Shown: positions 1,318 to 23,113 of the stretch, in pieces
Layout: every line of letters begins with the position of its first letter
Position numbering within the stretch: position 1 is the stretch's first letter
Virus record (IMG/VR): IMGVR_UViG_3300042197_004161
Coordinates: 1 to 23,113 of that record
Length of the DNA: 23,113 nt
From: a virus
Direction: 5' to 3' (one strand)
Translations under genes and position numbers: made by a program
Notes under the pieces: generated by a model
Databases searched by the model: none
What the model saw: only the letters and a program-made list of their open reading frames with translations
Told to the model about the DNA's origin: nothing

Positions 1318-1327
1318 AGTTTATTCC

Positions 1328-2977: not shown

Positions 2978-2988
2978 CTAGATACCTT

Positions 2989-4992: not shown

Positions 4993-5010
4993 TTTAAGGT
5001 GCGCCCAGCA

Positions 5011-5018
5011 TATTTATA
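5011..5018 (-). promoter_or_regulatory. T4-type late promoter box, exact TATAAATA
   Basis: Minus-strand TATAAATA in the 50-nt gap between the 809- and 667-residue fibre genes. In T4 the sigma gp55 recognises this box at about -10 with no -35. A start about 6 nt downstream would give a leader of around 13 nt for the 667-residue gene. Confidence 0.65.
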
Positions 5019-5042
5019 GAATTTTGATGTGCGAGATCAGCG

Positions 5043-7472
5043 TCAGTGCTTGCCAACAACTATCTCGATCAAGCCATCATCATTGGCATTTTCTAGACTT
5101 TTACCTATCACTGTGCCCACGCTGGCTTGATTGTTGGTGCGAGCAGCGCCGCTACCAGCACTGACCAACAGATCTCCCTTGCGCACAGGTCCTCGCACAA
5201 AACACTTGACGCGCCCCAACAGTGCCAGCGCCACAGCATGCTCGTGCTCAAGTCCAGAATTCATGAGATATGCCGGAGCTTCGGATACCACACCTGCCAC
5301 AGCAGAACAGTCAGGAATCAAGCATTTTGTGACTTCTTGTGCACCTCCAAATTGCAGTACAGTCCCAGGCGCGTAGTAGGCATCAGCACGATAAAGCTCA
5401 GCCACGTCAGCATACTGTGCCGAGGTGGCTTTGGCAAACACTGTGTTAAAATAGGTTGTGCTGCTGCCAATATTGCCAACACCATTGCTGGCGCCGTTAT
5501 TGATGTTGCCCAAGACAAGATTACCTGTTCCCAGAGTCAAGCCGGCAGGTGTAAACACAGCCACATTGGCCACACCGCTTACAGTCACAGCAATGTTGCC
5601 ATCGGTTGTGGATACTTTGACGTTTGAAGTGCCATTGATGATCTGCGTGGCATCCACACCAGTGAGTTGGCTGCCGTTGCCCAAAAAGTAATTGGCTGAT
5701 ATGTTGCCCGATGCTGTGATGTTGCCTGTTGTGGCAACACTGGTCAAGGATTGAACAGGATCAACACTGAATGTCGTGCCGGTAAGGACCAGTCCGGTGC
5801 CTGCACTGTAGACCTGCGTGGCAGAAAACTGCGTGAATGTTAGATTTGTGTAACCAATTATAAAAGGACCCACTGGCGCAGTCATTACATAGCTTTCGCC
5901 GGCGCCAGTGTTGCCCGAAGTCACATAAAAATAATCGCCTGCGTCTAGAGCATTTGTGTCTTCTGGAGCGTAGGTGTCGGTGTCAGTGCTGCGAGTCAAC
6001 ACCCAAGCGTTGCCCGCATCGCCGGGCACAGTGACAACGTAAACTCCATTTTCATAGGCATTGGTTTGATTATAAATCAAGACACGATCATTGATATTGG
6101 CAGTGACACCATCAATGGTCAGCGCTGCCAGTGCGCCGGTATTGGTCAAAGTTGCACCAACACCGGAGTTAGCACGCAGAGGTTGGGTGAGCCCTGTGCC
6201 GTTAGTCAGGCCTGTGATTTCAGTTCCATTGTACTGGGTAGACAATGTAACACTGTTGGCTGCCGGTGTAGAATAAACTAGATAAGCTAGATTTCCAGTG
6301 ATGCCATTGAAGCTGTTGTCAAACCATAAAACGTCGTTGGTGGACAAACTGTGTGCTGACGACATCACCAAGGTGTTACCTGTGACAATGTCTGTGACAG
6401 TGTGTGTGGTACCACCTTGAACATACGCTGCGTTAAAGCTACCAGCCGAGTCGGGGGATTCCAATCGCACAGGTGTGTGTATGGTTATTCCAGTGCTGGC
6501 CACAGTATCTACATAGAGTTTACTGGCTACGTCGCCAGCTAACACAGGAGATGGTACATTACCTATGGTACCGTTGGTTATGACTACATTACCACTGGGG
6601 GCAAGCACAATGTCAGAGGCGGCTGAGATTCCAAGATCACCCACTGAGCTGATGTTGCCTGTGACATCGCCTGTTACATTACCTGTGAGATCGCCAACAA
6701 CATTGCCTACAATGTCACCAGTGACGTTGCCTGTGACATTGCCTACAATGTTACCCAAGATGTTACCTGTGATATTGCCTGTGATGTTGCCCACCACATT
6801 TCCTGTCAGGGGTCCTACGAAAAATCCATAGTGTGTTTCGGTATTAGCATCCACCAGCACAGTACTGTCTTCTTTCAAGACACTGCCAAAGAGATCGCCC
6901 ACAACACTGCCTGTGACATCACCCGCCACATTGCCAGCGAGATCGCCTACAAAAGTTCCATAGTGTGTTTCGGTATTGGCATCTACCAGCACAGTGCTGT
7001 CTTCTTTCAAGACACTGCCAAAGAGATCTCCCACCACGCTGCCCACAACATCGCCGGTCAAGGGGCCAATAAACCCTGTTGACACAATGCCTTGTGGACC
7101 AAGCTGCACAACATTGGCTACCCCATTGATATCTACCAATATGTTGCCCGATGCAGTGGGTGTTGACAATCTTGTGTTGGCCAGCGGACTTTGTTTGACC
7201 ACGTTAGCATAAGCAATCGCTGCTGAAATGTTGGCCAAAGCGCCACCGTCACCAAGATAATAACCTGCTGTGATATTGCCTATGATGTTGGCTGTGTTGG
7301 CAGTGATGTCATCAATCGTGACATCTTCAAGATTGACGTTGCCAATGGATGCGTTGCCGTTGACGATGAGATTTCCCGTGATTGTGACCTGGTTTGTGTC
7401 CAAGGTCACGATATCCGTAGGGTTTATGGAAACAATGTTGTAATCGCCATCAACGCGCTTGAATGTGGCCAT
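5043..7472 (-). CDS. Large modular tail fibre-like protein
   Basis: 809 residues. ATG abuts the TAG of the upstream gene (TAGATG), with AAAGGA 8 nt ahead. N-terminal GN-rich segment with YYLGDGGALANIS. Residues 151-172 and 195-216 are a near-identical duplicated element (FGSVLKEDSTVLVDANTETH then YG). Residues about 219-275 are four-residue repeats (VTGN/ITGN). Residues about 340-550 form a globular module with INDRVLIYNQTNAYENGVYVV and ltR-type sequence, known from many phage fibres. The C-terminal ~130 residues start at TVFAKATSAQYADVAELY, then PGTVLQFGG, and end LIEIVVGKH, a conserved fibre tail module in aquatic phages. It loosely resembles intramolecular-chaperone/G2-type regions, but I see no clear catalytic pair. 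Fibre role is strong by type, details inferred. Confidence 0.87.
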   Translation of the reverse strand: MATFKRVDGDYNIVSINPTDIVTLDTNQVTITGNLIVNGNASIGNVNLEDVTIDDITANTANIIGNITAGYYLGDGGALANISAAIAYANVVKQSPLANTRLSTPTASGNILVDINGVANVVQLGPQGIVSTGFIGPLTGDVVGSVVGDLFGSVLKEDSTVLVDANTETHYGTFVGDLAGNVAGDVTGSVVGDLFGSVLKEDSTVLVDANTETHYGFFVGPLTGNVVGNITGNITGNILGNIVGNVTGNVTGDIVGNVVGDLTGNVTGDVTGNISSVGDLGISAASDIVLAPSGNVVITNGTIGNVPSPVLAGDVASKLYVDTVASTGITIHTPVRLESPDSAGSFNAAYVQGGTTHTVTDIVTGNTLVMSSAHSLSTNDVLWFDNSFNGITGNLAYLVYSTPAANSVTLSTQYNGTEITGLTNGTGLTQPLRANSGVGATLTNTGALAALTIDGVTANINDRVLIYNQTNAYENGVYVVTVPGDAGNAWVLTRSTDTDTYAPEDTNALDAGDYFYVTSGNTGAGESYVMTAPVGPFIIGYTNLTFTQFSATQVYSAGTGLVLTGTTFSVDPVQSLTSVATTGNITASGNISANYFLGNGSQLTGVDATQIINGTSNVKVSTTDGNIAVTVSGVANVAVFTPAGLTLGTGNLVLGNINNGASNGVGNIGSSTTYFNTVFAKATSAQYADVAELYRADAYYAPGTVLQFGGAQEVTKCLIPDCSAVAGVVSEAPAYLMNSGLEHEHAVALALLGRVKCFVRGPVRKGDLLVSAGSGAARTNNQASVGTVIGKSLENANDDGLIEIVVGKH
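6648..6818 (-). repeat. Tetrapeptide (12-bp) repeat array
   Basis: About 14 consecutive four-residue steps of the form V/I-T/V/L-G-N or G-D, without insertion. The regular period with G and N/D in fixed slots suggests a tight repetitive fold. It is distinct from the 12- and 17-residue repeats of the neighbours. Confidence 0.8.
6825..7022 (-). repeat. Duplicated 22-residue element at 132-bp spacing
   Basis: The coding stretches 6957..7022 and 6825..6890 encode the same residues, from FGSVLKED to TETHYG. They differ at a few third positions, such as gca/gta in context and tcg/tct nearby, so the copy is older than the exact ones elsewhere in the window. Confidence 0.85.
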
Positions 7473-8057
7473 CTATAGATCCTTTCCAGTATTTAGTTGG
7501 TCTAAAAAAACCTGTAGGTCCAGTTTTTCATGGTTTGATATTTTTTCTAGGTCATCAATGCGGGCAGTGGTACTGCCCATTACCCTAACAAACATCTTGT
7601 GCGGGTGTTGCTGCATCACTGTGACCAGTTGTTTGACCCAATTTCCAGTGTATGTGGGCGGGGCTCCTAGGTTTTTATAGTGTTCTGTACCAGCATAAAT
7701 GTTGTTGAAATGCCCGCTTTCGTTGGGGCCAAGATCAAAGCCCAACAGGTAAATCCTGTGATTGTTGTCGTCTGCGGCCAGTGCCGCTGCAATGGGACCC
7801 GAGCTCCAGGCATAATAGGGTTTAGGCACTGGTTGTGCGCCCCAGTCTGCTAATGGTCTGCGCGTATAGAAACGATTTTTCCTGGCATAGCCGCTGAATT
7901 GTATGTCTTTGGCTATGGGAGTATCTGTGGCCACCAAAACATGCACCGTGTTGGTGCGGTAAATGCCGTTGCAGCCGTACACCATGCCGCGCTTCATCAG
8001 ATGATCGGGGTCCACAGCTGATCTGCTTACCCCATTACCCAGTACAAAAGCGGCCAT
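7473..8057 (-). CDS. Conserved phage protein with LGNG/SSGP/LLGFDLG motifs; possible sugar-nucleotide or glycosyltransferase-like enzyme
   Basis: 194 residues, non-repetitive and of enzyme-like composition, unlike its fibre neighbours. The N-terminus VLGNGVSR followed by VYGCNGIYR resembles the nucleotide-binding entry of MptE/DUF115-type and some sialyltransferase-like families. The centre has VATDTPIAKDI, then SSGPIAAALAA and RIYLLGFDLG, an arrangement also seen in such families. PPTYTGNWVKQL follows. No signal peptide or membrane segment is visible. This family assignment is tentative and rests on motif resemblance only. A strong Shine-Dalgarno (AGGGAGGA) is buried in the 3' arm of a hairpin just before the ATG. 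The TAG stop abuts the next gene's ATG. A role in modifying virion or host surface is speculation from context. Confidence 0.8.
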   Translation of the reverse strand: MAAFVLGNGVSRSAVDPDHLMKRGMVYGCNGIYRTNTVHVLVATDTPIAKDIQFSGYARKNRFYTRRPLADWGAQPVPKPYYAWSSGPIAAALAADDNNHRIYLLGFDLGPNESGHFNNIYAGTEHYKNLGAPPTYTGNWVKQLVTVMQQHPHKMFVRVMGSTTARIDDLEKISNHEKLDLQVFLDQLNTGKDL

Positions 8058-8107: not shown

Positions 8108-8665
8108 TCAAGATGTGTAGTTTTCCACAATGCCCAAGCTGAGAATGTTCTGCTGTTGGCTGGTGTTGGCCAGCTGACCGCGGGTTCCTGACTTGATTTC
8201 AGTGCCTTCGTCGGTGAAGAAGTTCACTGCTACTCGCACCGGTGGTGTTGAGTAGTCCAGAGCAAACTTGTTGGTAAGCTTGCTGATGCGCACCAGGCTG
8301 GAGTCATCCAAGCTGTAGCTGATAGTCATGTTGCCTTCGCTTAAAGCACTGTCGGCTTCATTAGACAATGTGCAAACACCTTGATTGCCGTTGGTATCTT
8401 GCACCAGATACTTGATCGTGCCTTTTTGGCGCACGATCCAACCGTCAGCTTCGCTTTGACCAGCGATGAATACACGTACTTTGACCACAGGGTATGTTGC
8501 TGTTGCAACACCACCGCCGTCGCCTTCGCCGCCCACTACGCCGGCATATTCTGTTGTGGTAGCAGGATCAAAGCCTGTGGGAACCACAGGTGCTTCAAGT
8601 GCTGACCACGGATTGAAACCAATGTCTTTGGTTGTTGTTTTTTTGATTTTTAACGGACGTCCCAT
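8108..8665 (-). CDS. Probable virion-associated protein of unknown function
   Basis: 185 residues. Clear TAGGAG 9 nt before the ATG. The N-terminus is a basic stretch MGRPLKIKKTTTKDIGFN, a form I recall among uncharacterised proteins of aquatic T4-like phages. It is followed by a Gly/Glu linker at about 43-56 (GGEGDGGGV). Residues about 60-110 (VRVFIAGQSEADGWIVRQKG and KYLVQDTNGNQGVCTL) look like a compact beta domain. The rest (ISKLTNKFALDYST, then IVENYTS) is also beta-like. No catalytic motif is seen. Placement between adhesin and fibre genes, with its own late-promoter-like box and an 80-nt leader, suggests a highly expressed late structural or head-decoration protein. That is inference. 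Confidence 0.85.
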   Translation of the reverse strand: MGRPLKIKKTTTKDIGFNPWSALEAPVVPTGFDPATTTEYAGVVGGEGDGGGVATATYPVVKVRVFIAGQSEADGWIVRQKGTIKYLVQDTNGNQGVCTLSNEADSALSEGNMTISYSLDDSSLVRISKLTNKFALDYSTPPVRVAVNFFTDEGTEIKSGTRGQLANTSQQQNILSLGIVENYTS

Positions 8666-8751: not shown

Positions 8752-8759
8752 TATTTATG
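8752..8759 (-). promoter_or_regulatory. Late-promoter-like box CATAAATA
   Basis: One mismatch to the T4 late box TATAAATA. It overlaps the TAA stop of the 218-residue gene (8755..8757) and precedes the ~80-nt leader of the 185-residue gene. Confidence 0.5.
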
Positions 8760-9411
8760 GAGAGGGGGTGGTTTGCCAGCTCTTGCTATAATTATAGGCC
8801 CATACCGGCTGCGATACTGTGTTGCTCTGATATTCAAAATTGCTGTTGTCGCTGGTGGTCTGTTCAGTCATTTCGCAATAGAACAAATGCGACGAAAAGG
8901 TGTTTTGAGCACCGCCTGCAACAGCCGCTCCTTGTATGACGTAGGTAGCACGCACTGTCTGATAGAAGCCCCATGCTTCGCGATTGCCTAGATCGGTATG
9001 AGTGTAGCCAGCGTATATAATTCCAAAACTATTGAAGCTGTTGCTGTTTTGTTGGCGCACTACATTCCAGCGGCCCGTGATCACGATGCGGCACTGTGAG
9101 GCTGGATATAACACACTGTCGTCGTCCACGTAATCAGTAAGATCGTTGCCTATCACAGCAATGGGCCAGTTTTGGGCTTGTACGCGCAGCACGCCGCCCG
9201 ACAGCGGCCCGGGCTGTCGGCTGGGACTACCATAAAAATATTCCGACTTGGTTTCCTGATTGGGGTAGCCCAAGCTCAAACCAAACGTTGCGCCATCATT
9301 GTAGCCGGGTCGGCTCAACAGCCATGAACCTTGTGAGGTCACTGACAGTCCATTTGCCACTGTGAGCTCTGCGGTACCAGAATACCCGGGTGGTGTAAAA
9401 AAATCAGTCAT
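8755..9411 (-). CDS. Unrecognised protein, probable virion component
   Basis: 218 residues, no family recognised. It starts MTDFFTPPGYSGTAELTVAN and is rich in Ser, Thr, Tyr, Asn and Gly, with few charged residues, like extracellular beta-sheet proteins. Features include a run of PSRQPGPLSGG at about 83-93, an acidic turn DYVDDDS near 112-118, and GRWNVVRQQ at about 133-141. There is no repeat, signal peptide or membrane segment. It follows the third LamG gene by 18 nt. The ATG lacks a Shine-Dalgarno, but TTAAATAC ends 3 nt ahead, as in two other genes here. Position among adhesins suggests a receptor-binding or fibre accessory protein; this is context only. Confidence 0.8.
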   Translation of the reverse strand: MTDFFTPPGYSGTAELTVANGLSVTSQGSWLLSRPGYNDGATFGLSLGYPNQETKSEYFYGSPSRQPGPLSGGVLRVQAQNWPIAVIGNDLTDYVDDDSVLYPASQCRIVITGRWNVVRQQNSNSFNSFGIIYAGYTHTDLGNREAWGFYQTVRATYVIQGAAVAGGAQNTFSSHLFYCEMTEQTTSDNSNFEYQSNTVSQPVWAYNYSKSWQTTPSP

Positions 9412-9415
9412 GCTG

Positions 9416-9423
9416 TATTTAAC
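9416..9423 (-). promoter_or_regulatory. Weak late-promoter-like box (GTTAAATA)
   Basis: Two mismatches to TATAAATA. It sits 4 nt before the ATG at 9411, the same geometry as the boxes before 14792 and 18987. No ribosome binding site is seen. Support comes mainly from that shared layout. Confidence 0.35.
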
Positions 9424-9429
9424 GCATCA

Positions 9430-10149
9430 TCACAGGCTGTAGAGTGATCGATCGTTGTTGAAATTAGTGGTGATTTCAGCGGTGCTCAACGCTCTATTGT
9501 AAAGTCTCACGATGCCAATTCTGCCGGCAAAGAAACTACTGGTTCCCGATAGACTGCCAAGATATAACGGCACTGCCAGATTATTGATACTGCCAAGGGT
9601 ATGCGAATTAGTTCGTATTTTGGTACCATTGTCATAGGTATAAAGTTCTTGTGGACTACGTGAAAGTACATACACACGTTGATACCACTCGTTTGCGAGC
9701 ATAGCCGATTGCGTATTTTGCACACCTGTAGATCCACTGGCCCACCAAGGATAGTTCACTGTGCCAAAAGTTCTTGTCACAGCATAACTCAAGTCTGAAA
9801 AATTATTAAATGGTCCCTTTGATAGTATGTACTGATTGCCATCCTGCAGTCCTGGACTAAACCATATTTCAATACTATAACTACCACTACCTGGTTCTAG
9901 TAAAGCATTGTCTGGCACACTAATATAAGCATTGGTAGTAGGAAAGTTAAACAAGAAGTAAGGCGAAGTCCATGACACATTGGTCATGGTGCCATCTTGA
10001 TTGTTGCCGCTGAGATCATACACAGTGGTTCCAGATTCTGGATAACTGTTTACATCACTGGGATCGTACCACAACACCAACCCATCGGTCACTGGTCCGG
10101 ATTGAGCCGGCTTCACATTGTTCATTATTGATTGCATTATGCCAGTCAT
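9430..10149 (-). CDS. LamG-fold (concanavalin A-like) adhesin, copy 3
   Basis: 239 residues. Begins MTGIMQSIMNNVKPAQSGP, then VTDGLVLWYDPSDVNSYPES, and has YDLSGNNQDGTMTN, YSIEIWFSPG and, near the end, IGIVRLYNRALSTAEITTNF. These are the standard landmarks of LamG-type jelly-roll domains (Laminin_G_3 class), which bind carbohydrates or mediate adhesion. The domain occupies nearly the whole protein, so this is a stand-alone adhesin. Its ATG overlaps the TGA of the 29-codon mini-gene (ATGA), implying coupled translation; TAGG is about 10 nt upstream. Paralogous to the genes at 10250..10990 and 10987..11700. Confidence 0.9.
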   Translation of the reverse strand: MTGIMQSIMNNVKPAQSGPVTDGLVLWYDPSDVNSYPESGTTVYDLSGNNQDGTMTNVSWTSPYFLFNFPTTNAYISVPDNALLEPGSGSYSIEIWFSPGLQDGNQYILSKGPFNNFSDLSYAVTRTFGTVNYPWWASGSTGVQNTQSAMLANEWYQRVYVLSRSPQELYTYDNGTKIRTNSHTLGSINNLAVPLYLGSLSGTSSFFAGRIGIVRLYNRALSTAEITTNFNNDRSLYSL

Positions 10150-10235
10150 GCTGCGAACCTAGCTTGAGATTCACAATCCTGTGGCATAGTTTTTCTCGTA
10201 GTGGACACTTGATTACAAAATAATAAATTAGCCAT
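10146..10235 (-). CDS. 29-codon mini-gene between LamG genes
   Basis: Encodes MANLLFCNQVSTTRKTMPQD followed by CESQARFAA. AGAGGA lies 8 nt before the ATG, a better ribosome binding site than those of its neighbours. The stop overlaps the ATG of the third LamG gene as ATGA. It fills the only gap in the LamG cluster. Two Cys residues are present, and no membrane segment. It matches nothing I recognise. It could be a short functional peptide, a leader that loads ribosomes for the downstream gene, or the residue of a deleted gene. The initiation signals are clear; that the peptide has a function is not. Confidence 0.6.
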   Translation of the reverse strand: MANLLFCNQVSTTRKTMPQDCESQARFAA

Positions 10236-10249
10236 ACTGTATTCCTCTA

Positions 10250-10990
10250 TTATGACAAACCATAAGTGGCACGCATGACATTGAAATTTTGTAGGATTTG
10301 GATAGATGTGAGTGCTGTATTGTAGATCAGGCTTTGGCCTATCTGCCCGTTCATGGGATAACTGCCATTGGGGTTGGTACCACCAGCTGTGTACGCACTG
10401 ATGCCGATATAGCAATTCTGATTGTTGGCCATGAGTCCTGTGGTGGTATCAGTGGTAGAAGCCACCTGCTCACCGTCTACATAGAGAAATATTGTGTCCA
10501 AGGCCACGCTACGCACAACCACAGCATTGTGCCACGATCCATTGCAGAGATTGGTGCTGCCGGCCACGGATTTGCTGTTTGGTCCACTTGAGCCCATGTC
10601 AGCCACGAGGACGCCACTGGTGATATTCAAGTACATCCTGTAGTTCCATGGATAACCCACTGAGGTCTCTTTAGAGAACAGCATCTGATAGGTAGAAGTA
10701 GAGGATGATTTGAACCAAGAACTCAGGGTAAATGTTTCCGCACTCAAGTATTGTCCGGTGTTGATGTATCTGTTGTTGGTGGCACCGTTGAAGCCAAAAC
10801 TGGGTGCCCGTGCTGTGCTGTAAGTCACCCCGTTGACCAATGTTGTGGTGTAACCATTGGGGCTGAGATCGTAGGCCGAAGTTCCCGAGCCGGGATAACT
10901 GGCTGTGAGTTGGGGTTCCAGTCTCAGTTGCAGGCCATTTGTGATGATCTGCCCGGGCTGGGCAGATACAGCGTTCATAACTCCTGTCAT
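10250..10990 (-). CDS. LamG-fold adhesin, copy 2
   Basis: 246 residues. The start MTGVMNAVSAQPGQIITNGL is close to that of copy 3. YDLSPNGYTTTLVNG, FTLSSWFKSSSTSTYQMLFS, YVDGEQVASTTD and, at the end, IGQSLIYNTALTSIQILQNF identify a single LamG/Laminin_G_3 domain. The ATG overlaps the preceding stop as ATGA, so translation is probably coupled to copy 1. Likely a carbohydrate-binding accessory subunit at the tail tip or on the head surface; the family is solid and the location is inferred. Confidence 0.9.
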   Translation of the reverse strand: MTGVMNAVSAQPGQIITNGLQLRLEPQLTASYPGSGTSAYDLSPNGYTTTLVNGVTYSTARAPSFGFNGATNNRYINTGQYLSAETFTLSSWFKSSSTSTYQMLFSKETSVGYPWNYRMYLNITSGVLVADMGSSGPNSKSVAGSTNLCNGSWHNAVVVRSVALDTIFLYVDGEQVASTTDTTTGLMANNQNCYIGISAYTAGGTNPNGSYPMNGQIGQSLIYNTALTSIQILQNFNVMRATYGLS

Positions 10991-11700
10991 AATCCGTAAC
11001 GATCCTTTATGGCATTGAAGTTTTGAGCCACTTGGGGTGCGGACAGCACAGTGCTGTAGATCCTAAAGATGCTGACTTTGCCATCTAGTGTTACGGGACC
11101 ACTCTGTGGTCTAGGGTTTACTTGATAAAGATCGAGGGGAGCTGCTTGTGGTACATTGGCCGGTGTGCCAGTGTATACAGAAGTAGTCACAGAACTACCA
11201 TTGATGTATAATGCACTGCCCGTGGAACCTATGGTGGCAACTACTTGCTGCCAAGCACCTGTGGCGGGTGTAGTACTATAAGTAAGCCCCGTACCAGTGC
11301 CAGTTCCAAATCTATAGGTATATCCAGTGGTGGTCAGGAATCCCAGGTATCCATCGCTGGTTGTTGCACGTTTACTAAACAGCATGTTGGGACCAGCCGC
11401 ATTGACAGTGTCGAGATTGAACCAAGTCTCTATGGTGATTTCTGACATTGAATCCAGACTGGCCGCATCTGCGACGCTGAACCAGTCGCCATCACCGGGC
11501 ACTAGATCAAAATAACCACCGCTGGCTGCGTTCCACGCCGGCGTGCCCTGCAATGCAGCATCGTTGCTGTTGCCTGAAGTGTCCAACCAATCACCTGATC
11601 CTGAATAACCAGCAGCATCCAAGTTCAACACCAGATCCGCAGTCACTATCTGGAGATCATAGACAGAGACTCCTTTGAGAGTGATGCCTTCTATACGCAT
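10987..11700 (-). CDS. LamG-fold adhesin, copy 1
   Basis: 237 residues from the ATG at 11700. I prefer this to the in-frame TTG at 11703, because the ATG overlaps the preceding TGA (TGATG) and GGAG lies about 8 nt before it. The N-terminus MRIEGITLKGVSVYDLQIVT differs from copies 2 and 3. The LamG landmarks follow: LVLNLDAAGYSGSGDWLDTS, ITIETWFNLDTVN, ALYINGSSVTTSV, and VSIFRIYSTVLSAPQVAQNF. It is the most proximal of three tandem paralogues downstream of the 1030-residue fibre, and may be an adhesin assembled with it. Confidence 0.9.
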   Translation of the reverse strand: MRIEGITLKGVSVYDLQIVTADLVLNLDAAGYSGSGDWLDTSGNSNDAALQGTPAWNAASGGYFDLVPGDGDWFSVADAASLDSMSEITIETWFNLDTVNAAGPNMLFSKRATTSDGYLGFLTTTGYTYRFGTGTGTGLTYSTTPATGAWQQVVATIGSTGSALYINGSSVTTSVYTGTPANVPQAAPLDLYQVNPRPQSGPVTLDGKVSIFRIYSTVLSAPQVAQNFNAIKDRYGL

Positions 11701-14700
11701 CAATACACTCCGGTACCGTTGATGAACCAGGTATCTGATGCCACCTTCATCACTGTGGCCATGCCATATGTGCCTACCACCCTGTTGCCGGCAGAGTTGC
11801 TACCGGCCATGTACAGTGTCACCCCCGAATCGGCATTGACCAACACGTTGCCTGCGGCCTGTACCACCAAGGTAAACGCTGTGCCTGTGGGGAACGCCAC
11901 ATTGGCATTGGCAGGGATCAATAATGCGAGATTGCCAGCTGTGGTCGAGTAGAAGTGCTTGCCGCTGTCTGCGAGAGCAGCAGTGGTATTAGCACCAAGA
12001 GATACCTGGGGAATCTCACGATACCCGATGCTGTAACCGTTGACATTAGCTGAAATATTACCGGTCAGCGTGATATCATTGGCAGTGACAGTACCGTTGG
12101 CAAATGCGGTGTTACCAGTGTTGTCAAAGGTCCAGGTATAACTACCAGCCACTAGTTCTACGTTGGCACTAGTGCCGGTGATATTGCCTGTGAGGCTGAC
12201 ATTGCCGATAAAGTTGGCTGCTGTGATATTGCCGGTGGTAGAAATTGTGTTAGATCCAAACGCCGCTAAGAATGTAGACACGTTGCTGTCGCTGTAGCTG
12301 GCCGGCAGGCCTGTAAGCAAACTACCGTCGCCTATGAAATAACCCGCTGTAACATTGCCTGAGCCCGAGATGTTGCCGCCCGCAGGCAGGTTCAAGTCGC
12401 CCAAGGTATCAAAGGTCCAGGTTCGAGCAGTGCCGGCCACATTGCTTTGGATCACGAGATTGGCGTCGCTCTTCAGTCGCGTGGCTGTGATGTTGCCAGG
12501 AACAGTCAAATTACCAGTGTTGTCAAACGTCCAGTTATAAACATTTCCGCCCTCGGCTGTTTGGATGTTTAGATTGCCACGACCAACTGGCACCCTGATT
12601 TCAGGCTCGGCGCCGCTTCGGAATATCTCTAACCAGTTGCCTCCGATCTCTTGGTCATAAAAGCCCAGGCCGCCCGACGAACCTAGATAAATCGAGTTGG
12701 CATTGCCGGTGGTGGTGTTGAGACTGACCAGAGCTAGGGTATCATCGATGGTTCGTATAGCACCTTCACCAACGGGCAGTGTAAGCTCACCATATGCACC
12801 AGCTGAACCAAAGGTCCAAACATGGGTGTTGGCTGCGATTTGCACATTGGGATCCTGTCCTGCCGGCAGTTTCACATAGCTGTTCTCACCGCCCAGGAAT
12901 AGGTCAGCACTGGAGTTGTCTTGTGTGCCACCAGCACGTATGTGTATGTGTCCGGGTGCTGTGGGATCAAGGATGACATACTGATCTGTACCCGTTAAAT
13001 TCTCGTCGGGTATCAATTCTAAAGTAGTATATCCGTTGCCGTCACCTGACGAATTGGCCACGGTGTTGATCTGGCTCACAGCCGATGCACTAACATTGCC
13101 CATACGGATGTTGCCCGGGGCAGTCAGCACGCTGTCGGCACCAAAGGTCCAGGACCAGTTGTTGCCAGAAATGTCGGCGTCGGTGGTGATGGTTGCTGGG
13201 TATCCAAGAGGTGTGTCAATCCTGAAGTAAGGCGTGCCCGCACCGGGTTCGTCACCTATGATGGTGTTGCCAGCGAACCGGATGTAGTTGGGCGCGGTGA
13301 GGTCACCGTTGGTATCAAACAACCACTGCTTAACGGAACCATCCACATTGGTACGGACACCAAAGTTGGCCACTGTGCTGATACCGCTGTCCACAGAGTT
13401 GTTGAGTTGTATCAAAGTATTGCTGGCGGGCTGGGCGCGGAGAACCAAGGTGCTGGCACCGGCTGTACCAGTGATGTCGCCAGCTGTTGTGATGTCACCC
13501 GGAGCAGTCAGGGTGCCATCTGCACCAAACTCCCAGCTTTTCTGGGTGTTATCGTAGTCGGTGATGATCGAAATAGGATCAGTGGTGCTGAGATTTCGCA
13601 AGGAAACCACATCGTTACCAGTGATACGAACGTCGTCGGTGGTCACTACTCGGAAGTCCAAAGCCTGTATGTCAACTTGGCTGTTGGCAGCACTGATAAC
13701 AAGGTCTTGACCGTCGGGCGGTGACATCGTGGTATCTGTGAACGTGATGTTGCCGGTGGAAGAAATCCCTGTGAGCAGGCTACCGTCTCCGATAAAGTAA
13801 TTGGCAGTGATGTTGCCTGTGGTGGAAATTACGTTGGAGCCAAATGATGCCAGAAATCCAGCGACATTGGCGTTGCCATATTGGGAAAGATTTGCATCAG
13901 CAGGTGTGTAAGTAAACACTCCCGAAGTGTTGTTGTAACTCAAGCTACCGTTGCCAGACGGGCTGGCGGTAGTAACCGACAAATTGCCTAATGTAATAAA
14001 GCTTGGGGCACCGGTTATGTTAGCCCATGCAACGTTGCTGATTTGAGCACCGTCTCCAATGATATAGTTGGCGGTGATGTTGCCTGTGGTGGTTATGGTG
14101 GTGGCGCTGTCATTTGACAACAATGGCTCGCCAGCCAATGTGAGAGTGTTGCCGGGGGCAACACTAAGCGGCACGCCACCTATGTAGATTGTGTTACTGG
14201 CCACCCAAAGGCTGTTCCACTGATTGGTGGCATTGCCCAGATTCCAGGTAGTGTTGGCACTGGGCATGATATTGCCAGCAATGCCCGAGGACAGCAGATT
14301 GATAACATTGGCATCACCATAGGAAGTGCTGCCTGCTATCGTGATATTGGCCACAAGGCCATTAAAACTAGAAACAGTTACACCTGCACCTTGGAAATTC
14401 AAAAGCGTTGTTCTTGGTACTATCACAGTGCCGTCTTGTGCAGTTGGCAGATACACAGGACCAATGCGCACTGATTCCAACGGCGTGGGTGTTGGTGTCA
14501 GCACAGTTTCGCTGACTGTGGCCACATCAGACACCACCGGTGGTGCATCATTGGCCACTGCGGGATCTTCGGTCACGGCGGCCGGTGCTGTATCTATAGA
14601 GCTCAAAGGTATTACAACAGGCGTGCTTGTGACTGGCAGTGGTGCTGGTGCACGATCTATTTCCGACAAAGGTATCGGAGTCACATTCAACGGAACGTCA

Positions 14701-14792
14701 ATGGGAGCAGGTTGTCGTTTGATCTGCGATCTTGGTACCACAGGAGTGGTTGTGGTGTTGGTATCTACTGGTGGTGGTTGTTGTGTGGCCAT
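11700..14792 (-). CDS. Large fibre-like virion protein with proline-rich N-terminus and conserved C-terminal domain
   Basis: 1030 residues from the ATG at 14792. An in-frame TTG at 14816 would add 8 residues but lies at the foot of the terminator hairpin. Residues 1-110 are Pro/Thr-rich, with a 21-residue repeat (PRSQIKRQPAPI, PLSEIDRAPAPL, PLSSIDTAPAAV). Then come GN-rich fibre segments, including two GDGSLLTG modules. Between about 420 and 890 there are seven motifs of the form W-x-F-[GD]-x-x-G-x-L-x-x-P, for example WEFGADGTLTAPG. The last ~105 residues (ALADSGKHFYSTTAGN, then IPANANVAFPTGTAFT, and KVASDTWFINGTGVY) match a widespread phage fibre C-terminal domain. Neither start has a Shine-Dalgarno; AATAAATA sits 4 nt before the ATG. 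First gene after the capsid terminator. Confidence 0.87.
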   Translation of the reverse strand: MATQQPPPVDTNTTTTPVVPRSQIKRQPAPIDVPLNVTPIPLSEIDRAPAPLPVTSTPVVIPLSSIDTAPAAVTEDPAVANDAPPVVSDVATVSETVLTPTPTPLESVRIGPVYLPTAQDGTVIVPRTTLLNFQGAGVTVSSFNGLVANITIAGSTSYGDANVINLLSSGIAGNIMPSANTTWNLGNATNQWNSLWVASNTIYIGGVPLSVAPGNTLTLAGEPLLSNDSATTITTTGNITANYIIGDGAQISNVAWANITGAPSFITLGNLSVTTASPSGNGSLSYNNTSGVFTYTPADANLSQYGNANVAGFLASFGSNVISTTGNITANYFIGDGSLLTGISSTGNITFTDTTMSPPDGQDLVISAANSQVDIQALDFRVVTTDDVRITGNDVVSLRNLSTTDPISIITDYDNTQKSWEFGADGTLTAPGDITTAGDITGTAGASTLVLRAQPASNTLIQLNNSVDSGISTVANFGVRTNVDGSVKQWLFDTNGDLTAPNYIRFAGNTIIGDEPGAGTPYFRIDTPLGYPATITTDADISGNNWSWTFGADSVLTAPGNIRMGNVSASAVSQINTVANSSGDGNGYTTLELIPDENLTGTDQYVILDPTAPGHIHIRAGGTQDNSSADLFLGGENSYVKLPAGQDPNVQIAANTHVWTFGSAGAYGELTLPVGEGAIRTIDDTLALVSLNTTTGNANSIYLGSSGGLGFYDQEIGGNWLEIFRSGAEPEIRVPVGRGNLNIQTAEGGNVYNWTFDNTGNLTVPGNITATRLKSDANLVIQSNVAGTARTWTFDTLGDLNLPAGGNISGSGNVTAGYFIGDGSLLTGLPASYSDSNVSTFLAAFGSNTISTTGNITAANFIGNVSLTGNITGTSANVELVAGSYTWTFDNTGNTAFANGTVTANDITLTGNISANVNGYSIGYREIPQVSLGANTTAALADSGKHFYSTTAGNLALLIPANANVAFPTGTAFTLVVQAAGNVLVNADSGVTLYMAGSNSAGNRVVGTYGMATVMKVASDTWFINGTGVY

Positions 14793-14796: not shown

Positions 14797-14804
14797 TATT
14801 TATT
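14797..14804 (-). promoter_or_regulatory. Late-promoter-like box AATAAATA
   Basis: One mismatch to TATAAATA, just downstream of the terminator that ends the capsid gene and 4 nt before the ATG at 14792. T4 spacing would place the transcript start at or next to the A of the ATG, making the mRNA leaderless. Confidence 0.55.
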
Positions 14805-17200: not shown

Positions 17201-17827
17201 CTAACGTTTGAGCTCCTTGATGAGGCGTTTGATTTCCTCTTTCAAGTAACCCTGTACTTTTTTGTTGTCCGGTCCAGCTTCACGTGCTAATTCAAGCATT
17301 TTGTGTCCGTAACGCATATTCATCAAGCTTTCATAGATTGCTTTAGGATAAGCATTGGGAGCGCTGGGCTGGGCAACCACATCCACAGTGACTATTTCAA
17401 AGTCACTGACATGTCCATTGTGTCCTACATTTCCGCTGCCGCGGCTGCTGACACCCAGCTTGACATGACTGGTCAAAAGGGTGCGCACTAAATTTCCCAT
17501 GGGAGTTGGCAGGATTTTGAGCTTGCCGTATCCGCAGGGTCCATCCATCCACATGTTCATGATCATGTGGCTCACACGATCAAGGTTGATTTTGAGATCA
17601 TCGGGGTGATCAACTTCGCCTAAGACCGAATGACCGGTCTTGATCTGCTCCATGATGGTGCCAACGGCTTTTTCTATCTCATTGACAGGATACACACGTT
17701 CGTTGGCATTTTTTACGCCACCTTCAATGCATATACCTTGCATGTAAAGATCCTTACCTTCGCCAGTGCCCTCAACTATAATGCGGGCCTGGTCGAAAGT
17801 AAGGTATTCTTTAAGATAAGCTGCCAT
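17201..17827 (-). CDS. gp21: Prohead maturation protease, T4 gp21 family
   Basis: 208 residues, the usual size for the family. The herpesvirus-protease-like fold is marked by LGEVDHPDDLKINLDRVSH with catalytic His74, and by KLGVSSRGSG with the nucleophile Ser among residues 127-128. These correspond to the His and Ser of T4 gp21. QGICIEGGVKNANERVYPV at the N-terminus is also typical. The enzyme sits in the prohead core, cuts capsid, scaffold and core proteins, and then itself. The C-terminal LKEEIKRLIKELKR is a basic helix. Only a weak ribosome binding site precedes the ATG, 14 nt after the upstream gene, so coupling is likely. Confidence 0.97.
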   Translation of the reverse strand: MAAYLKEYLTFDQARIIVEGTGEGKDLYMQGICIEGGVKNANERVYPVNEIEKAVGTIMEQIKTGHSVLGEVDHPDDLKINLDRVSHMIMNMWMDGPCGYGKLKILPTPMGNLVRTLLTSHVKLGVSSRGSGNVGHNGHVSDFEIVTVDVVAQPSAPNAYPKAIYESLMNMRYGHKMLELAREAGPDNKKVQGYLKEEIKRLIKELKR

Positions 17828-17841: not shown

Positions 17842-18663
17842 TTACTGCTTGGGGAAAGGTGTCTTGGTGTTGACGCCTGTCTCTTGCTTGAGTTGCGGCT
17901 TGGGAGCTGCGTCAAGCTTCACAGTGTTCTGTGCTGGTGTGTTCTGCACCTTGCCAATCATGTCCTTGGCTGTGGGCGCTGAACGACCGCTTTCTGCAGC
18001 GGTGTCAGTCTTGACCGGCTTGGCAACAGCGCCCTTGGCTCCGCTGTTGGCAGCCACAACTGGCTTGGTGTTGATACCCGACTCTTCGCTAGTCACGGCC
18101 TTGGGGGCTGCTTTGAGGTTGATAGCTTCTTCCATGGGCATCTTCATGCCTTCGGTTTCAAGCTCGTCATCCACGACTTCTTCGGCGTCCATGTCTGCGC
18201 CAACATCAACATCGTCGACTTCAACATCCATGTCTAGTTCGTCAGAGCCCATGCCCTCATCGCCCATGAGTTTTTCAAACTCTGCCATGAGATCTTCAAC
18301 TTCTTTCTCAAGGTCAACTACGCGATCCTCGAGATCTTCTTTGTGATCCATGTCGTCTTCGCCGGCTTCGCCAAGACCCACTTCTTCAACTTCTACGTCG
18401 TCGATGAGGTCATCGGCTTGATCGCCGCCAAGATCGCCTTCTTCCACCTTTTCCTTGTCATCATCATGTTCATCTTTGGCTTCGTCGACTTTCTTGTCTT
18501 CGTCGTCCTTGTCGTGTTCGGCTTCTTCAAGCTCGTCTTTCTTCATCATTTCTTCGTAGATAGTGCGGCTCTTTTCCACTACTATCTCGTGAAAGAGTTC
18601 ACGAGCTTTGGCGTCTTCGTCATTGATCACGTATTCGATCAATTGTTCAAATTTGTTTGTCAT
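17842..18663 (-). CDS. Acidic prohead core protein, gp68 position
   Basis: 273 residues, about twice the length of T4 gp68 (141). Residues 1-40 (FEQLIEYVINDEDAKARELF, then EIVVEKSRTIYEEM) are the helical N-terminal signature of prohead core proteins in T4-like phages. Residues about 41-170 are extremely rich in Asp and Glu with scattered Lys. Residues about 170-273 are an Ala/Lys/Pro/Thr linker with two INTK or VNTK elements. The acidic middle may act as a DNA-like charge block inside the prohead; this is inference. Strong GAGGAGG precedes the ATG. The product is presumably removed by gp21. Confidence 0.85.
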   Translation of the reverse strand: MTNKFEQLIEYVINDEDAKARELFHEIVVEKSRTIYEEMMKKDELEEAEHDKDDEDKKVDEAKDEHDDDKEKVEEGDLGGDQADDLIDDVEVEEVGLGEAGEDDMDHKEDLEDRVVDLEKEVEDLMAEFEKLMGDEGMGSDELDMDVEVDDVDVGADMDAEEVVDDELETEGMKMPMEEAINLKAAPKAVTSEESGINTKPVVAANSGAKGAVAKPVKTDTAAESGRSAPTAKDMIGKVQNTPAQNTVKLDAAPKPQLKQETGVNTKTPFPKQ

Positions 18664-18685: not shown

Positions 18686-18702
18686 CTGTAAAATATTTAC
18701 AG
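18686..18702 (-). promoter_or_regulatory. Late-promoter-like box inside a palindrome, upstream of the gp68-like gene
   Basis: CTGTAAA / TTTACAG forms a 7-bp perfect palindrome with a 3-nt centre. On the minus strand TGTAAATA (18694..18701) is one mismatch from the T4 late box. It lies about 31 nt before the ATG at 18663 and ahead of GAGGAGG. It could drive gp68-like through gp23, or be a protein-binding or RNA hairpin site. Confidence 0.4.
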
Positions 18703-18752: not shown

Positions 18753-18772
18753 GTAAAGTCAGGAGACTTTAC
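18753..18772 (-). terminator. Hairpin at end of the gp67-like gene, weak terminator or processing site
   Basis: Perfect 8-bp stem GTAAAGTC / GACTTTAC with loop TCCT, spanning the TAA stop of the 72-residue gene. The following CATTATTTTC is only a poor U-tract, so partial termination or RNA stabilisation is more likely than full termination. The rest of the gap (18664..18752) holds the palindromic promoter-like site. Confidence 0.5.
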
Positions 18773-18987
18773 ATCATGGGCTGCACAGGTGGTGCGTACT
18801 GAGCCTTGACCTTGGCCAATTTTTCCTTGAACTCTACTGCTCTAACATCGTTGAGCTGACGCAGTTTGTTGATCTGCGCCAAAGTTAGTTTGGTTTTTCT
18901 CAGATCGCCCAGCTTGGGTCGCGAGTTATCCTGACCAATGTCTTGATAACTTTCTTTTTCTCTTTCATAGAGTTCAAGCAAAATCAT
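18769..18987 (-). CDS. Small prohead core protein, gp67 position
   Basis: 72 residues, close in size to T4 gp67 (80). Charged and helical; KLTLAQINKLRQLNDVRAVE then FKEKLAKVKAQYAPP is a pattern I recall in proteins between portal and protease in T4-like aquatic phages. It ends PPVQPMM. By position it should be part of the prohead core, but sequence similarity to T4 gp67 is not evident to me. No Shine-Dalgarno is present. An exact TATAAATA ends 5 nt before the ATG and overlaps the portal stop, predicting a transcript that begins at the ATG itself. Confidence 0.82.
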   Translation of the reverse strand: MILLELYEREKESYQDIGQDNSRPKLGDLRKTKLTLAQINKLRQLNDVRAVEFKEKLAKVKAQYAPPVQPMM

Positions 18988-18992
18988 GCTGG

Positions 18993-19000
18993 TATTTATA
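18993..19000 (-). promoter_or_regulatory. T4-type late promoter box, exact TATAAATA
   Basis: The minus-strand sequence TATAAATACCAGCATG joins the box to the start of the gp67-like gene. With the T4 layout (box at -13 to -6) position +1 is the A of the ATG at 18987. The box contains the TAA stop of the portal gene. Confidence 0.7.
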
Positions 19001-20798
19001 CAGCAGGGGCGCCAGCAGCCGCCGGGGCAGCAGCACCTGCAGCAGGCTGTTGACCGGGTGCAGCGCCGGGGGCACCAGGTGCAGCGCCGGCGGCACCGCC
19101 AGGTGCTTCAGGTTCACCCAAGCCTGACAACTCAGCAGCGGTGTCAAGATCTGACTCAATGCCCGCAGGCGTGACACCCACAGATCTAAGATCCGTTCCG
19201 GCCGCAGGCGGTGCAGTGGCCTCGGTGCGCTCTTGTTCCCAGAGCTCTTCGTTCTCGCGCACTTCATCTTCGCTGAGACCCAGGTAGCGTTTCAGCAGGA
19301 ATCGCTTGCTGAGATAGGGCAAGGCATCCAGTTGTGTAAACGTGCTGACTCGTGTAGTGTCAAGTTCAGCTTCGCGATAGCTGGCGAAGTTCTGCGGTGG
19401 GTTGAATCTAATACTAAACAGGCCAGCATCAATATTGAAGCCGCGCCAGCGCATGAACATCTTGAATTCATCGTCAAGTTTTTGCACCACTAGACGCTGG
19501 AGTCGCTCGCAGTACTGATTAAATCTGTATTCTTGTATCAGTGCAGTGCCCACTCGACCGTCGTTGAGGGGGCGATCGCTGTCATCGGGTCCCGTGGGCA
19601 GATAGCTGCTGGGCACACGCAGTCCGCGACACATCTTGTTGTTGAAATACTTGAGATCGTCGATCTCACCAAGATTGCTGCCGCCCGGCAAGGTTTCCAC
19701 AGAACTACCGCGTCCATCTGCTGTTTGCGGGAAGAAGTAATCTTCGTTGATACTGAGTGGATTGTAGCTGGAATCCATGATGTGCTGGCCGCCACCGGTG
19801 TAGCTGGGTATTCTGCGCTGATGTATTTCGTTCTTGACGCGCTCCACAAACTGCATGGCCATGTGGCTGGGCATGCTGCCCACGTCGATCTTAAACACCC
19901 TACGTTCCGGTGCGCGGGCCACACGGTAAATCAACACAGCATCTTCCAGGAGTTCCTTTTGTTTGAACACACGGAATATGGTTTCCAGCACGCTCTGTCC
20001 AAATGGCCAGTAAAAGTCCAGGCCTTCAGTGAGACTGATGTGAACCACGTGTTTGGCGTCGATCACAGCCTCGTTCATGGCTGCGGCAAAACGGCTCTTG
20101 CCAATGCCTCCGCCGCCTGCGCCGGCCGTGGGCACTGTGTAGTTGTAGGGCGCCACGTAACCCGAGCTGGGCGGATTGCTTTGATAGTCTGTGGTGGTCT
20201 TGGCGGCCACTGTGAGATTCTGGAAGTTGGGATTGATGTCACGGATCACGTACTGCTCGGGACGTTTGCCTTCGCTTTCGTTTACAATCACACGCGCCAC
20301 TTTGGTCATGTCGACCCAGTACATCTCAAAGGTTTCGGGGTCGCGCACAAACACCTGGTCGCCGTACTTGATGGTGTTGCGGAATATGCGGAAGATGCGC
20401 TGATCCAGCTTGTTGAGCTTGACCCACTGCTGTAGCTGCTGCTTGATGATGCGCACTTCGTTGTCAGTGGGCGATTCTGTGTACTGCACATCAAAAGGCA
20501 TGGCTGTGTCGGGATTGGTCTGGGTACTGAACTCAGCCAGGATATCCAGACATGAATTGATCTCAGAATCCATGTCCATTTGTTCGTACTGATTGTAGCG
20601 TTCTATGCGATTGGGATGACCGCTGTAGACTTCTGGCAAACGGCTGGCGTAGTTTCTATAAACGATGTCGGCTTGGCCGCGCAAAGGATCCACCACGCTG
20701 TTGCGTCCGTAGCCCGGCAGACCATCGGCGCCACGTCCTGATATGGGACTGAGCTGACCATACTCGTTTGAAACCTTGAAATACTTTTTCCAAGACAT
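18996..20798 (-). CDS. gp20: Portal vertex protein, T4 gp20 family
   Basis: 600 residues (T4 gp20 is 524). It forms the dodecameric ring through which DNA enters the head. Family landmarks: MDMDSEINSCLDILAEFSTQ near the N-terminus, YGDQVFVRDPETFEMYWVD, YRVARAPERRVFKIDVGSMP, the long helix FVERVKNEIHQRR, and DDLKYFNNKMCRGLRVPSSY. A glycine-rich insertion (GAGGGGIGKSRF) lies near residue 230, about 20 residues before HVVHISLTEGLD. The last 40 residues are almost only Ala, Pro and Gly (GEPEAPGGAAGAAPG onward), which is not a feature of T4 gp20. Start ATG is 8 nt after the preceding stop, with no clear Shine-Dalgarno. Confidence 0.97.
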   Translation of the reverse strand: MSWKKYFKVSNEYGQLSPISGRGADGLPGYGRNSVVDPLRGQADIVYRNYASRLPEVYSGHPNRIERYNQYEQMDMDSEINSCLDILAEFSTQTNPDTAMPFDVQYTESPTDNEVRIIKQQLQQWVKLNKLDQRIFRIFRNTIKYGDQVFVRDPETFEMYWVDMTKVARVIVNESEGKRPEQYVIRDINPNFQNLTVAAKTTTDYQSNPPSSGYVAPYNYTVPTAGAGGGGIGKSRFAAAMNEAVIDAKHVVHISLTEGLDFYWPFGQSVLETIFRVFKQKELLEDAVLIYRVARAPERRVFKIDVGSMPSHMAMQFVERVKNEIHQRRIPSYTGGGQHIMDSSYNPLSINEDYFFPQTADGRGSSVETLPGGSNLGEIDDLKYFNNKMCRGLRVPSSYLPTGPDDSDRPLNDGRVGTALIQEYRFNQYCERLQRLVVQKLDDEFKMFMRWRGFNIDAGLFSIRFNPPQNFASYREAELDTTRVSTFTQLDALPYLSKRFLLKRYLGLSEDEVRENEELWEQERTEATAPPAAGTDLRSVGVTPAGIESDLDTAAELSGLGEPEAPGGAAGAAPGAPGAAPGQQPAAGAAAPAAAGAPAV

Positions 20799-20806
20799 AG
20801 ATATAC

Positions 20807-23113
20807 TTAGTTTGTAGACACACGCACCAGCTTTTCGCTGATCTTGTTGCTGCGACTCTGGAGATCCACAAGCTTGGTGAGCTGCGACATCATTTCAGCC
20901 ATGCCCCCGGCGGCCATTTCAGGAGCAGCGCCCAGTGCAGGAGCAGCGGCTGCTGCCGTTGGCGTGCTGCCCGGAGTCATGCCAGCCTTGGCAAACACAT
21001 TTTCTATGTCAGTGAGAGCCGATGTGACATTGGGTGTGATCAAGGATTGAGCAGGAGCGGTCATGCCGGTCATTGCAGCGGGATTGTCTAGCATGCCTCC
21101 TAGGCCCGCTGTGCTGATGTCAGCAAAAGCCTGCATGGGGCGACTTATCATCTCGCCTATCATGTCTGTGCCGTCAAGGTCTACAGCTTTTACTTGGCTA
21201 GTGAGTTCTTTGAATGCAGAATCAATGAACTGAGCATCAAGAGCCTCAATATCTAAATCCTGCGCTGTGGCAGCTAGATTTTGCACCGTGCCGTTGACGT
21301 CGGCGAATGCCGCAGTAACATCTTGAAAAACATCTCCAACTGAGGTTTGCTGTTGTGTGAATCCAGCAAAACTGTCGGCGAATGCCGCAGTAACATCTTG
21401 AAAAACATCTCCAACTGAGGTTTGCTGTTGTGTGAATCCAGCAAAACTGTCAGTAAACACAGTTTGTAGTTGCGGGAATGGATTGGGCTTTAGTGTTACT
21501 GGTAATACTTTGCCTATGGGCAACACAGCCTCAGGACCAGCCTCGCCCACGATACTGGGACCTTGTGTAATGCCACCTTCAGCCATTTGTGGCAATTTTC
21601 TCAATGCCTCGCGAGACCGCATATCTCCTTGCAACACTTCCATGCCACTCAAGGCATCGCGGATGATGCCGTAGCCAGCATCAAAGCCGATCTGCTTGGC
21701 TCCGTCACGCATTTGGGTCATTTGGGCATCAAAACTTTGCTCGCCAAGCTGCTGAAGAATCGCTGCGTACTGGTCGCTGAGTCGTTTGTTTTCGCCGCGC
21801 TGCTGGAATTCGCTGGTGTTTTGACCAAATGCGTTTTGTGCCGCCCAAACCTTGCCTTCGGGGGTGCGCATCAAGAAGCTAAGGTAATCTGCTGCCGTAA
21901 TGGCACCGCCGCTGCGATCTCGGAGGGTTTCAACTTCTCGCCTAAAATCTCGATCAATGGCCAACATTTCTTGGTAGGCCTGATCAAGCTTGCCAGCAAC
22001 GGACATGGGATCTATGGACCAGCTTTCTTCGTCTTGAATATTGAGACCTGGGATCATGGAGGTGTTGCTGAGACTGTCGCCCATGCCGTAGGCCTTGCGT
22101 ATTTGATCTGCTGTGGGTGCGCGGTAGGCGCCTTTCATTTCCACAGGTATATTCTTACCGTCAGGCAGTGGAACAAACGCTTCGTTCTGTCCAGCTTCGC
22201 CAGCTACTACTCTGGTGCCACCCTGTCGCGCGGGAATCACGCCACCATCTCGCATGTAGATGTGCGGTGGATCATTGGCCAGCGTCTTGAATCCGTACTT
22301 GCTGAGCAGGCCCATTTGGGCCAAGGCTTGAACTTCTTTGCTGTTCAAATCCGCTGCCATACCAAAATTATGCTTGCTACGACCTGGTTGTGCCTTGGGA
22401 TTCGCACCGGGATTGATACTAGCCTGTTCTTCAATGCTACGGAACGCTGAATTGAGATTTAATTTTTGACCAGTCTGCAGGTTGTACTCCTGGGCCATGC
22501 TGACCAAGGCCTGCCGGAAGCCAGGATCCAGTTTTTCAAAATGAGCTTGGCTGCCGGTGCCGCTGCCAAAGTTAAACAATTGATCTGGTGTAATTGCGCC
22601 CGTGGGTGGACCTCCAGCACCGCCTCGAACAGCCGGTGGTTGGCCACCTTTGGCACCGCCTGCTGGGGCTGCGGGTTTAGCAGCAGCGCCTGCACCGCCA
22701 GCTGGCATACGGCCTGTGTCTTTCAGGGTCTCTACCTGGCTGGCCACTCTTGCTTCACGACCCGACTTGCCCAGGGCGGTAAATGTCTGTCCAACGCGGT
22801 CGAGTCCAATTAGATCAAAGCCAGATCCAATGATTTCCGCTGTGTCATTGATGGCTTCGCCCAGGAGGATTCCAGCTTTCTCCGTAGTGGTAGCCAGCTT
22901 GTAATTGGCATCCTGTTGACGCTGTATGGCTTCTTCTCTAGACTCAGCGTCTGCTATCATCTTGGTGGGATCAACCGCGATATCAACTGCGTCGCCGATG
23001 GCCTTGGTGGTATCGTTTAATTTTTCAATTTCTTCCGTGCTGGGTTCTTTCTGCTGGGCAAGTCCTTCAAGACCCAGCTTATCACTGATCACGCTGAGAA
23101 ATTCATTCAGTGT
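20807..23113 (-). CDS. Virion-type protein with M15/VanY-like peptidase motif and tape-measure-like segments, N-terminus outside window
   Basis: The frame stays open to the right edge; the GTG at 23092 is an internal option, and the residues before it (TLNEFLS) look coding. Numbering from that GTG, residues 125-165 are an Ala/Pro/Gly linker. About 170-285 resembles M15 D-Ala-D-Ala carboxypeptidase-like hydrolases, with SKHNFGMAAD (239-248), the SxHxxGxAxD zinc motif, and DPPHIY (His277). Asp274 stands where the family usually has Glu in ExxH. GGVIPARQGG/VVAGEAGQNEAFVPL (283-309) and GGITQGPSIVGEAGPEAVLPIG (506-527) are the VGEAGPE-type motifs of tape-measure proteins. A perfect 25-residue tandem duplication lies near 548-597. 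Likely a tail-associated muralytic protein used at entry; inference. Confidence 0.88.
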   Translation of the reverse strand, partial: TLNEFLSVISDKLGLEGLAQQKEPSTEEIEKLNDTTKAIGDAVDIAVDPTKMIADAESREEAIQRQQDANYKLATTTEKAGILLGEAINDTAEIIGSGFDLIGLDRVGQTFTALGKSGREARVASQVETLKDTGRMPAGGAGAAAKPAAPAGGAKGGQPPAVRGGAGGPPTGAITPDQLFNFGSGTGSQAHFEKLDPGFRQALVSMAQEYNLQTGQKLNLNSAFRSIEEQASINPGANPKAQPGRSKHNFGMAADLNSKEVQALAQMGLLSKYGFKTLANDPPHIYMRDGGVIPARQGGTRVVAGEAGQNEAFVPLPDGKNIPVEMKGAYRAPTADQIRKAYGMGDSLSNTSMIPGLNIQDEESWSIDPMSVAGKLDQAYQEMLAIDRDFRREVETLRDRSGGAITAADYLSFLMRTPEGKVWAAQNAFGQNTSEFQQRGENKRLSDQYAAILQQLGEQSFDAQMTQMRDGAKQIGFDAGYGIIRDALSGMEVLQGDMRSREALRKLPQMAEGGITQGPSIVGEAGPEAVLPIGKVLPVTLKPNPFPQLQTVFTDSFAGFTQQQTSVGDVFQDVTAAFADSFAGFTQQQTSVGDVFQDVTAAFADVNGTVQNLAATAQDLDIEALDAQFIDSAFKELTSQVKAVDLDGTDMIGEMISRPMQAFADISTAGLGGMLDNPAAMTGMTAPAQSLITPNVTSALTDIENVFAKAGMTPGSTPTAAAAAPALGAAPEMAAGGMAEMMSQLTKLVDLQSRSNKISEKLVRVSTN
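21299..21448 (-). repeat. Exact 75-bp tandem duplication
   Basis: Units 21299-21373 and 21374-21448 are identical base for base and keep the frame. The protein unit reads FAGFTQQQTSVGDVFQDVTA plus AFADS. Perfect identity including third positions indicates a very recent duplication or a slippage product. Confidence 0.92.

Follow-up and report, generated by a model that had tools for sequence, protein, structure and literature searches.

Late promoter boxes placed against start codons point to a class of predicted leaderless late genes in large T4-like phages

Late transcription in bacteriophage T4 is among the best studied developmental switches. Leaderless mRNAs tend to be regarded as exceptions, found in individual phage genes or particular hosts. 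In T4 the late box covers positions -13 to -6 (PMC2988020), and leaderless initiation in E. coli needs a 5'-terminal AUG (PMC9031893). Regarding the pelagimyophages, late promoter prediction was reported to be unsuccessful, and the passages found in that paper contain no mention of a leaderless layout (PMC7029224). Such a layout may be one reason for the failed prediction. T4-type late promoters and leaderless initiation are each already known; the new part would be their joining as a regular class of late genes. No description of such a class was found in the open-licence papers searched; an earlier account elsewhere is possible.

The window, i.e. the whole stretch of DNA analysed here, is a 23,113-bp IMG/VR virus fragment with all likely genes on the minus strand. 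The gene order reads: structural protein with a VanY-like domain, portal (gp20), 72-aa protein, acidic 273-aa protein, head protease (gp21), 362-aa coiled-coil protein (gp22 position) and major capsid (gp23), followed by tail-fibre-like and LamG-like proteins. The nearest cultured portals, from PA5oct, Atu_ph07 and Phosso, show about 50% identity, and the nearest cultured capsid, from Vibrio phage 2.275.O, shows 66%. Since its IMG/VR relatives include contigs of 170-353 kb, the window most likely belongs to a T4-like jumbo phage. A host search by matching phage contigs in genome bins yielded a single, uninformative bin. Positions 20807-23113 encode the long structural-type protein with the VanY-like D-Ala-D-Ala carboxypeptidase domain (Pfam PF02557), and 1-7472 encode long tail-fibre-like proteins with repeated Gly-Asn/Thr-rich units (GNITA.GN...). 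Three adjoining LamG/concanavalin A-like lectin-type proteins at 9430-11703 are probably serial duplicates of a gene for tail or capsid decoration. The genes and boxes relevant to this study are:

18996..20798, minus strand: portal protein (gp20), phrog_213, E 8e-103
18769..18987, minus strand: 72-aa protein gene, predicted leaderless, in the portal-protease interval at the position of T4 gp67/68, phrog_13986
11700..14792, minus strand: 1030-aa tail-fibre-like repeat protein, predicted leaderless
8755..9411, minus strand: 218-aa protein with no assigned function, predicted leaderless
18993-19000, minus strand: late box TATAAATA, exact, 5 nt before ATG 18987
14797-14804, minus strand: late box AATAAATA, one mismatch, 4 nt before ATG 14792
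9416-9423, minus strand: late box GTTAAATA, two mismatches, 4 nt before ATG 9411
20804-20811, minus strand: variant box ACTAAGTA, (AC)TAAGTA, 5 nt before portal ATG 20798
18694..18701, minus strand: late box TGTAAATA, 30-nt leader and strong Shine-Dalgarno (SD) sequence (GAGGAGG), gene 17842-18663
8752..8759, minus strand: late box CATAAATA, leader of about 86 nt and SD (AGGAG), gene 8108-8665
7490..7497, minus strand: late box ACTAAATA, 17-nt leader and SD (AAAGGA), gene 5043-7472
5011..5018, minus strand: second copy of late box TATAAATA, 18-nt leader without clear SD, gene 2989-4992

The initial annotation had described exact, one-mismatch and two-mismatch boxes ending 4-5 nt upstream of the starts at 18987, 14792 and 9411, and both mismatch counts and spacings are as it gave them. 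It had also stated that these starts have no SD, and none of the three indeed carries an SD 4-mer at -18..-5. That this absence is specific to them was borne out in part: 10 of the 17 starts checked have an SD 4-mer, but those at 17827, 10149 and 4992 also lack one and have no adjoining box. A fourth box of the window adjacent to an ATG, the TAAGTA near-match before the portal gene, had been overlooked, and the portal gene is probably leaderless as well. TAAATA occurs eight times on the coding strand of the window; three of the 17 starts follow it by 4-7 nt where 0.024 are expected (Poisson P ~2e-6, a post hoc value for a question then tested in independent genomes). The boxes at 18694, 8752, 7490 and 5011 stand 17-86 nt off, mostly with a strong SD, and the window thus holds both classes. 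Homologues of gene 17842-18663 have a leader and SD in 94/117 contexts, and those of gene 2989-4992 have box and leader, with SD in most.

With the box spanning -13 to -6 in T4, +1 coincides with the A of the ATG when 5 nt separate box and ATG, in agreement with the earlier placement of +1 at or beside this base. With a 4-nt gap the A would lie at -1 by strict T4 spacing, so that start-site choice must be slightly flexible. Leaderless late transcription at these boxes is, as far as sequence comparison can tell, highly probable. The T4-type late box would be recognised by the host RNA polymerase with gp55, the phage sigma factor, bound to it, and the first transcribed base would be the A of the ATG or lie no more than about 3 nt from it. 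Such a late mRNA would be leaderless and be translated from its 5'-terminal AUG without an SD. A second late class in the same phages has the same box with a leader of at least 10 nt and usually a strong SD. The conserved box, its conserved spacing, the missing SD, the two separate spacing classes, the empty zone dividing them, the ATG-only starts and the gp55 homologues are observations; from these we infer the exact +1, translation from a 5'-terminal AUG and each step that leads from the position of the box to a 5' end and on to leaderless translation.

Concerning the generality of this layout, open reading frames (ORFs) were called in Python in seven large relatives (G001, G004-G009), and the distance from each box to the gene ATG was measured; gene calls in uncultured genomes are ORF-based. 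NATAAATA lies 4-7 nt before a gene ATG in 56 cases (13, 27, 9 and 7 at 4, 5, 6 and 7 nt), compared with about 7 in total for permuted motifs. It is absent at 9-12 nt and forms a broad second class from 15 nt up. The core TAAATA precedes 156 starts by 4-7 nt versus about 21 expected from permuted motifs, some of which overlap the box itself and inflate the control maxima, and only six starts by 9-13 nt. An enrichment of boxes before start codons, named in the initial annotation as a computational check, is thereby present in 7/7 large relatives. In most cases the box-to-ATG spacing equals the T4 box-to-start distance, and a box 9-13 nt away, the empty zone, would give a leader of 4-8 nt. Mapped leaders of Lactococcus cremoris show the same gap, with none of 4-14 nt (PMC10986495). 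The share of genes with an SD 4-mer is 5% where the box stands at 4-7 nt (the close class), 76% where the box is followed by a leader, and 39% among the remaining genes. Start codons of the close class are ATG in 156 cases and GTG or TTG in nine, and the first 40 nt of its mRNAs are the least structured of the three classes. Each genome has 11-34 such genes. Distant large contigs are alike, G017 having 23 starts at exactly 5 nt and G016, a partial one, 26 at 4-7 nt. Taken together, a large, mostly uncultured T4-like group appears to place the late promoter of selected structural genes right at their start codon.

The 72-aa gene was followed through related loci found by tblastn with the 72-aa protein, and every close relative listed has the box just before the ATG. 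The full set of 194 loci also includes more distant portals retrieved with PA5oct and Atu_ph07 queries. TAAATA stands 4-8 nt before the ATG in 149/194; 13 others have TAAGTA at 5 nt, 14 have a box with leader and SD, 17 an SD without box, and PA5oct has neither. Among 121 different contexts the gap is exactly 5 nt in 98 and 4 nt in 16; the letters of the spacer vary, its length barely. ATG 18987 must be the start, since the next Met of the window's 72-aa protein comes only at residue 71; the alignment begins at the same Met in all relatives. The annotation of the PA5oct homologue says that this protein was detected by mass spectrometry. Relatives lacking the box, or having a ribosome binding site in its place, had been named as evidence against the leaderless layout; in all 93 tested loci whose portal shares 60% identity or more with that of the window, the 72-aa gene still has the box directly before its ATG, as do 4/4 homologues of the 9411 gene. 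Where the adjoining box before the 72-aa gene is lost, an SD is present, except in the TAAGTA clade and PA5oct. In a portal tree (FastTree, 161 rows) whose deep branches are unsure, the leaderless state changes about seven times and occupies 114/116 rows of one well supported side. The 14792 gene has no close homologue among the fetched loci; G005 encodes at 156296 a protein with an N-terminus similar to that of the 1030-aa protein, with the box at 7 nt and predicted leaderless. TAAGTA 5 nt before the 72-aa gene marks a separate portal clade (L255, L259, L262-L265, L268, L274, L275, L277, L285, L293, L298), and the same variant precedes the portal of the window; it is possibly an accepted late-box variant.

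The boxes might instead be late promoters for downstream genes, the abutting gene being translated mainly from longer read-through mRNAs, by coupling to the gene upstream or SD-independent initiation. Indeed, in 81/155 of the close class an upstream gene on the same strand ends within 30 nt, and in 32 of the 155 that gene's stop codon is formed by the TAA of the box. Many members of the class have no upstream gene end nearby, however, and read-through, which we consider unlikely, predicts neither a constant gap of 5 nt nor an empty zone between 9 and 13 nt, nor the gain of an SD upon loss of the box. AU-rich, unstructured starts are able to recruit ribosomes without an SD. The motif could accordingly be an AU-rich translation signal acting at the RNA level in place of the SD, without any promoter, and the weak structure of the first 40 nt would suit this. 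Yet the same motif stands 15-40 nt before SD-led genes of the same genomes and fits the T4 late consensus including an Aeh1-like variant (PMC2988020), with a matching sigma factor encoded, which makes such a signal very improbable.

TAAATA could also arise by chance or by constraint at gene ends, as a stop codon followed by AT-rich sequence; the three sites of the window are few, and the portal gene ends with the TAA inside the 18993-19000 box. Against this stand the permuted-motif controls (56 vs ~7 for the 8-mer, 156 vs ~21 for the 6-mer) and the fact that the upstream stop lies inside the box in no more than the 32 cases above. Together with the conservation at the 72-aa gene across 194 loci, the controls refute this explanation, to which we give practically no credence. 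Leaderless late transcription is the preferred reading.

Which genes are predicted leaderless differs between virion parts. In the large relatives, the portal gene, with TAAATA 5-7 nt before its ATG, and the gp25-like wedge gene are predicted leaderless in 7/7 each and the terminase gene in 2/5; sheath (6/6) and gp13-like neck protein (5/5) have the box with leader and SD, and the major capsid has an SD in 7/7. In the fetched loci an SD precedes the genes for capsid, scaffold and 273-aa protein with almost no exception; the portal switches, with 34 contexts predicted leaderless and 16 having leader and SD. A division into leaderless minor and SD-led major parts would agree with this, with gp13 as a counter-example and a small sample. 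Tentatively, leaderless genes may form a second built-in late class, with minor virion parts (portal, gp25-like wedge, 72-aa core protein) leaderless and major ones (capsid, scaffold, sheath) SD-led, where the position of promoter to ATG would set part ratios or serve a late ribosome switch; we regard this as doubtful. A conserved gene predicted leaderless, with its box 4 nt off, encodes a 182-aa iron/manganese superoxide dismutase (Pfam PF02777, E 4e-21):

G005 137960 (L107:17960-18508): superoxide dismutase gene, also in G001, G006 and G009

A homologue of the gp55-family late sigma factor is found in 7/7 large relatives (phrog_12791, E 7e-74), the window itself being a fragment of only 23 kb. 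GG and GC variants of the first two bases of the box resemble the Aeh1 variant (PMC2988020). The gp55-type sigma factor of G005 (303045-303944, L116:3045-3944) and its orthologues have about 300 aa versus 185 in T4, with an N-terminal extension or insert, which also occurs in PA5oct, 121Q and Vibrio 2.275. With the extension present in these phages and the gp55 of HTVC008M being short, an enlarged gp55 was rejected as the cause. Neither gp33 (PF16805) nor the gp45 clamp (PF02916) gave a match in the jumbo relatives, but PF02916 also misses the annotated processivity factor of HTVC008M and is hence poorly sensitive; gp33 is present in HTVC008M by PF16805. Ribosomal protein bS21 sits near the anti-Shine-Dalgarno sequence, and it is encoded by eight large records with an excess of boxes at the ATG (G002, G005, G006, G008, G013, G015, G016 and G018) and by HTVC008M. 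As a requirement it was dismissed: G001, G003 and G014 lack it despite their close class, whereas PA5oct, Atu_ph07, Phosso and Vibrio 2.275 encode it and do not clearly show the class. It may nevertheless have some link to late translation.

Among cultured phages, the Pelagibacter phage HTVC008M, a pelagimyophage, has 15/198 CDS whose deposited starts follow TAAATA by 4-7 nt, the gap being exactly 5 nt in 12 (permuted mean 1.6). An SD is found in 13% of these 15 CDS versus 63% of the rest. The box-adjacent genes include those for baseplate wedge protein, tail tube cap, head closure, DNA end protector, tape measure and tail completion. No excess of boxes at the ATG was detected by distance counts in T4, Syn9, PA5oct, 121Q and Vibrio 2.275, nor by pattern count in KVP40, Aeh1, P-SSM2, Cr30, RaK2 and XaC1, which rules out a universal T4-like trait.

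T4-like jumbo phages, a widespread group, and at least one cultured SAR11 phage thus seem to join both mechanisms in a regular gene class. Filters that expect a leader would miss such late promoters and starts. The switching of the portal gene between leaderless and leadered forms among close relatives is a natural experiment, and with HTVC008M in culture, leaderless translation in lytic phages becomes directly testable.

Compared with known systems, the layout shares with T4 the 8-bp box, a gp55-type sigma factor and a distance, since the box-to-transcription-start distance of T4 equals the box-to-ATG distance found here. T4 (TATAAATA; gp55, gp33, gp45) differs in that 0/65 of its NATAAATA copies sit 4-7 nt before a gene ATG, most of those near starts being 15-30 nt upstream; the layout is foreign to T4, as had been suspected. 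Cyanophages (Syn9, S-PM2, P-SSM2) likewise have a T4-type late box but no adjacent class, with 0/38 boxes at 4-7 nt in Syn9 and pattern matches of 4 vs 4 in the control for S-PM2 and 13 vs 11 for P-SSM2. HTVC008M shares the box-adjacent, mostly SD-less class, in a smaller, AT-rich genome. Bacterial leaderless mRNAs and lambda cI are alike in having the AUG at or near the predicted 5' end, no SD, a strong preference for AUG and leader lengths that are bimodal around an empty zone (PMC9031893, PMC10986495). Unlike these cases, which concern an isolated gene or a host trait, the genes described here would make up a large class of late genes that a phage controls through its own sigma factor.
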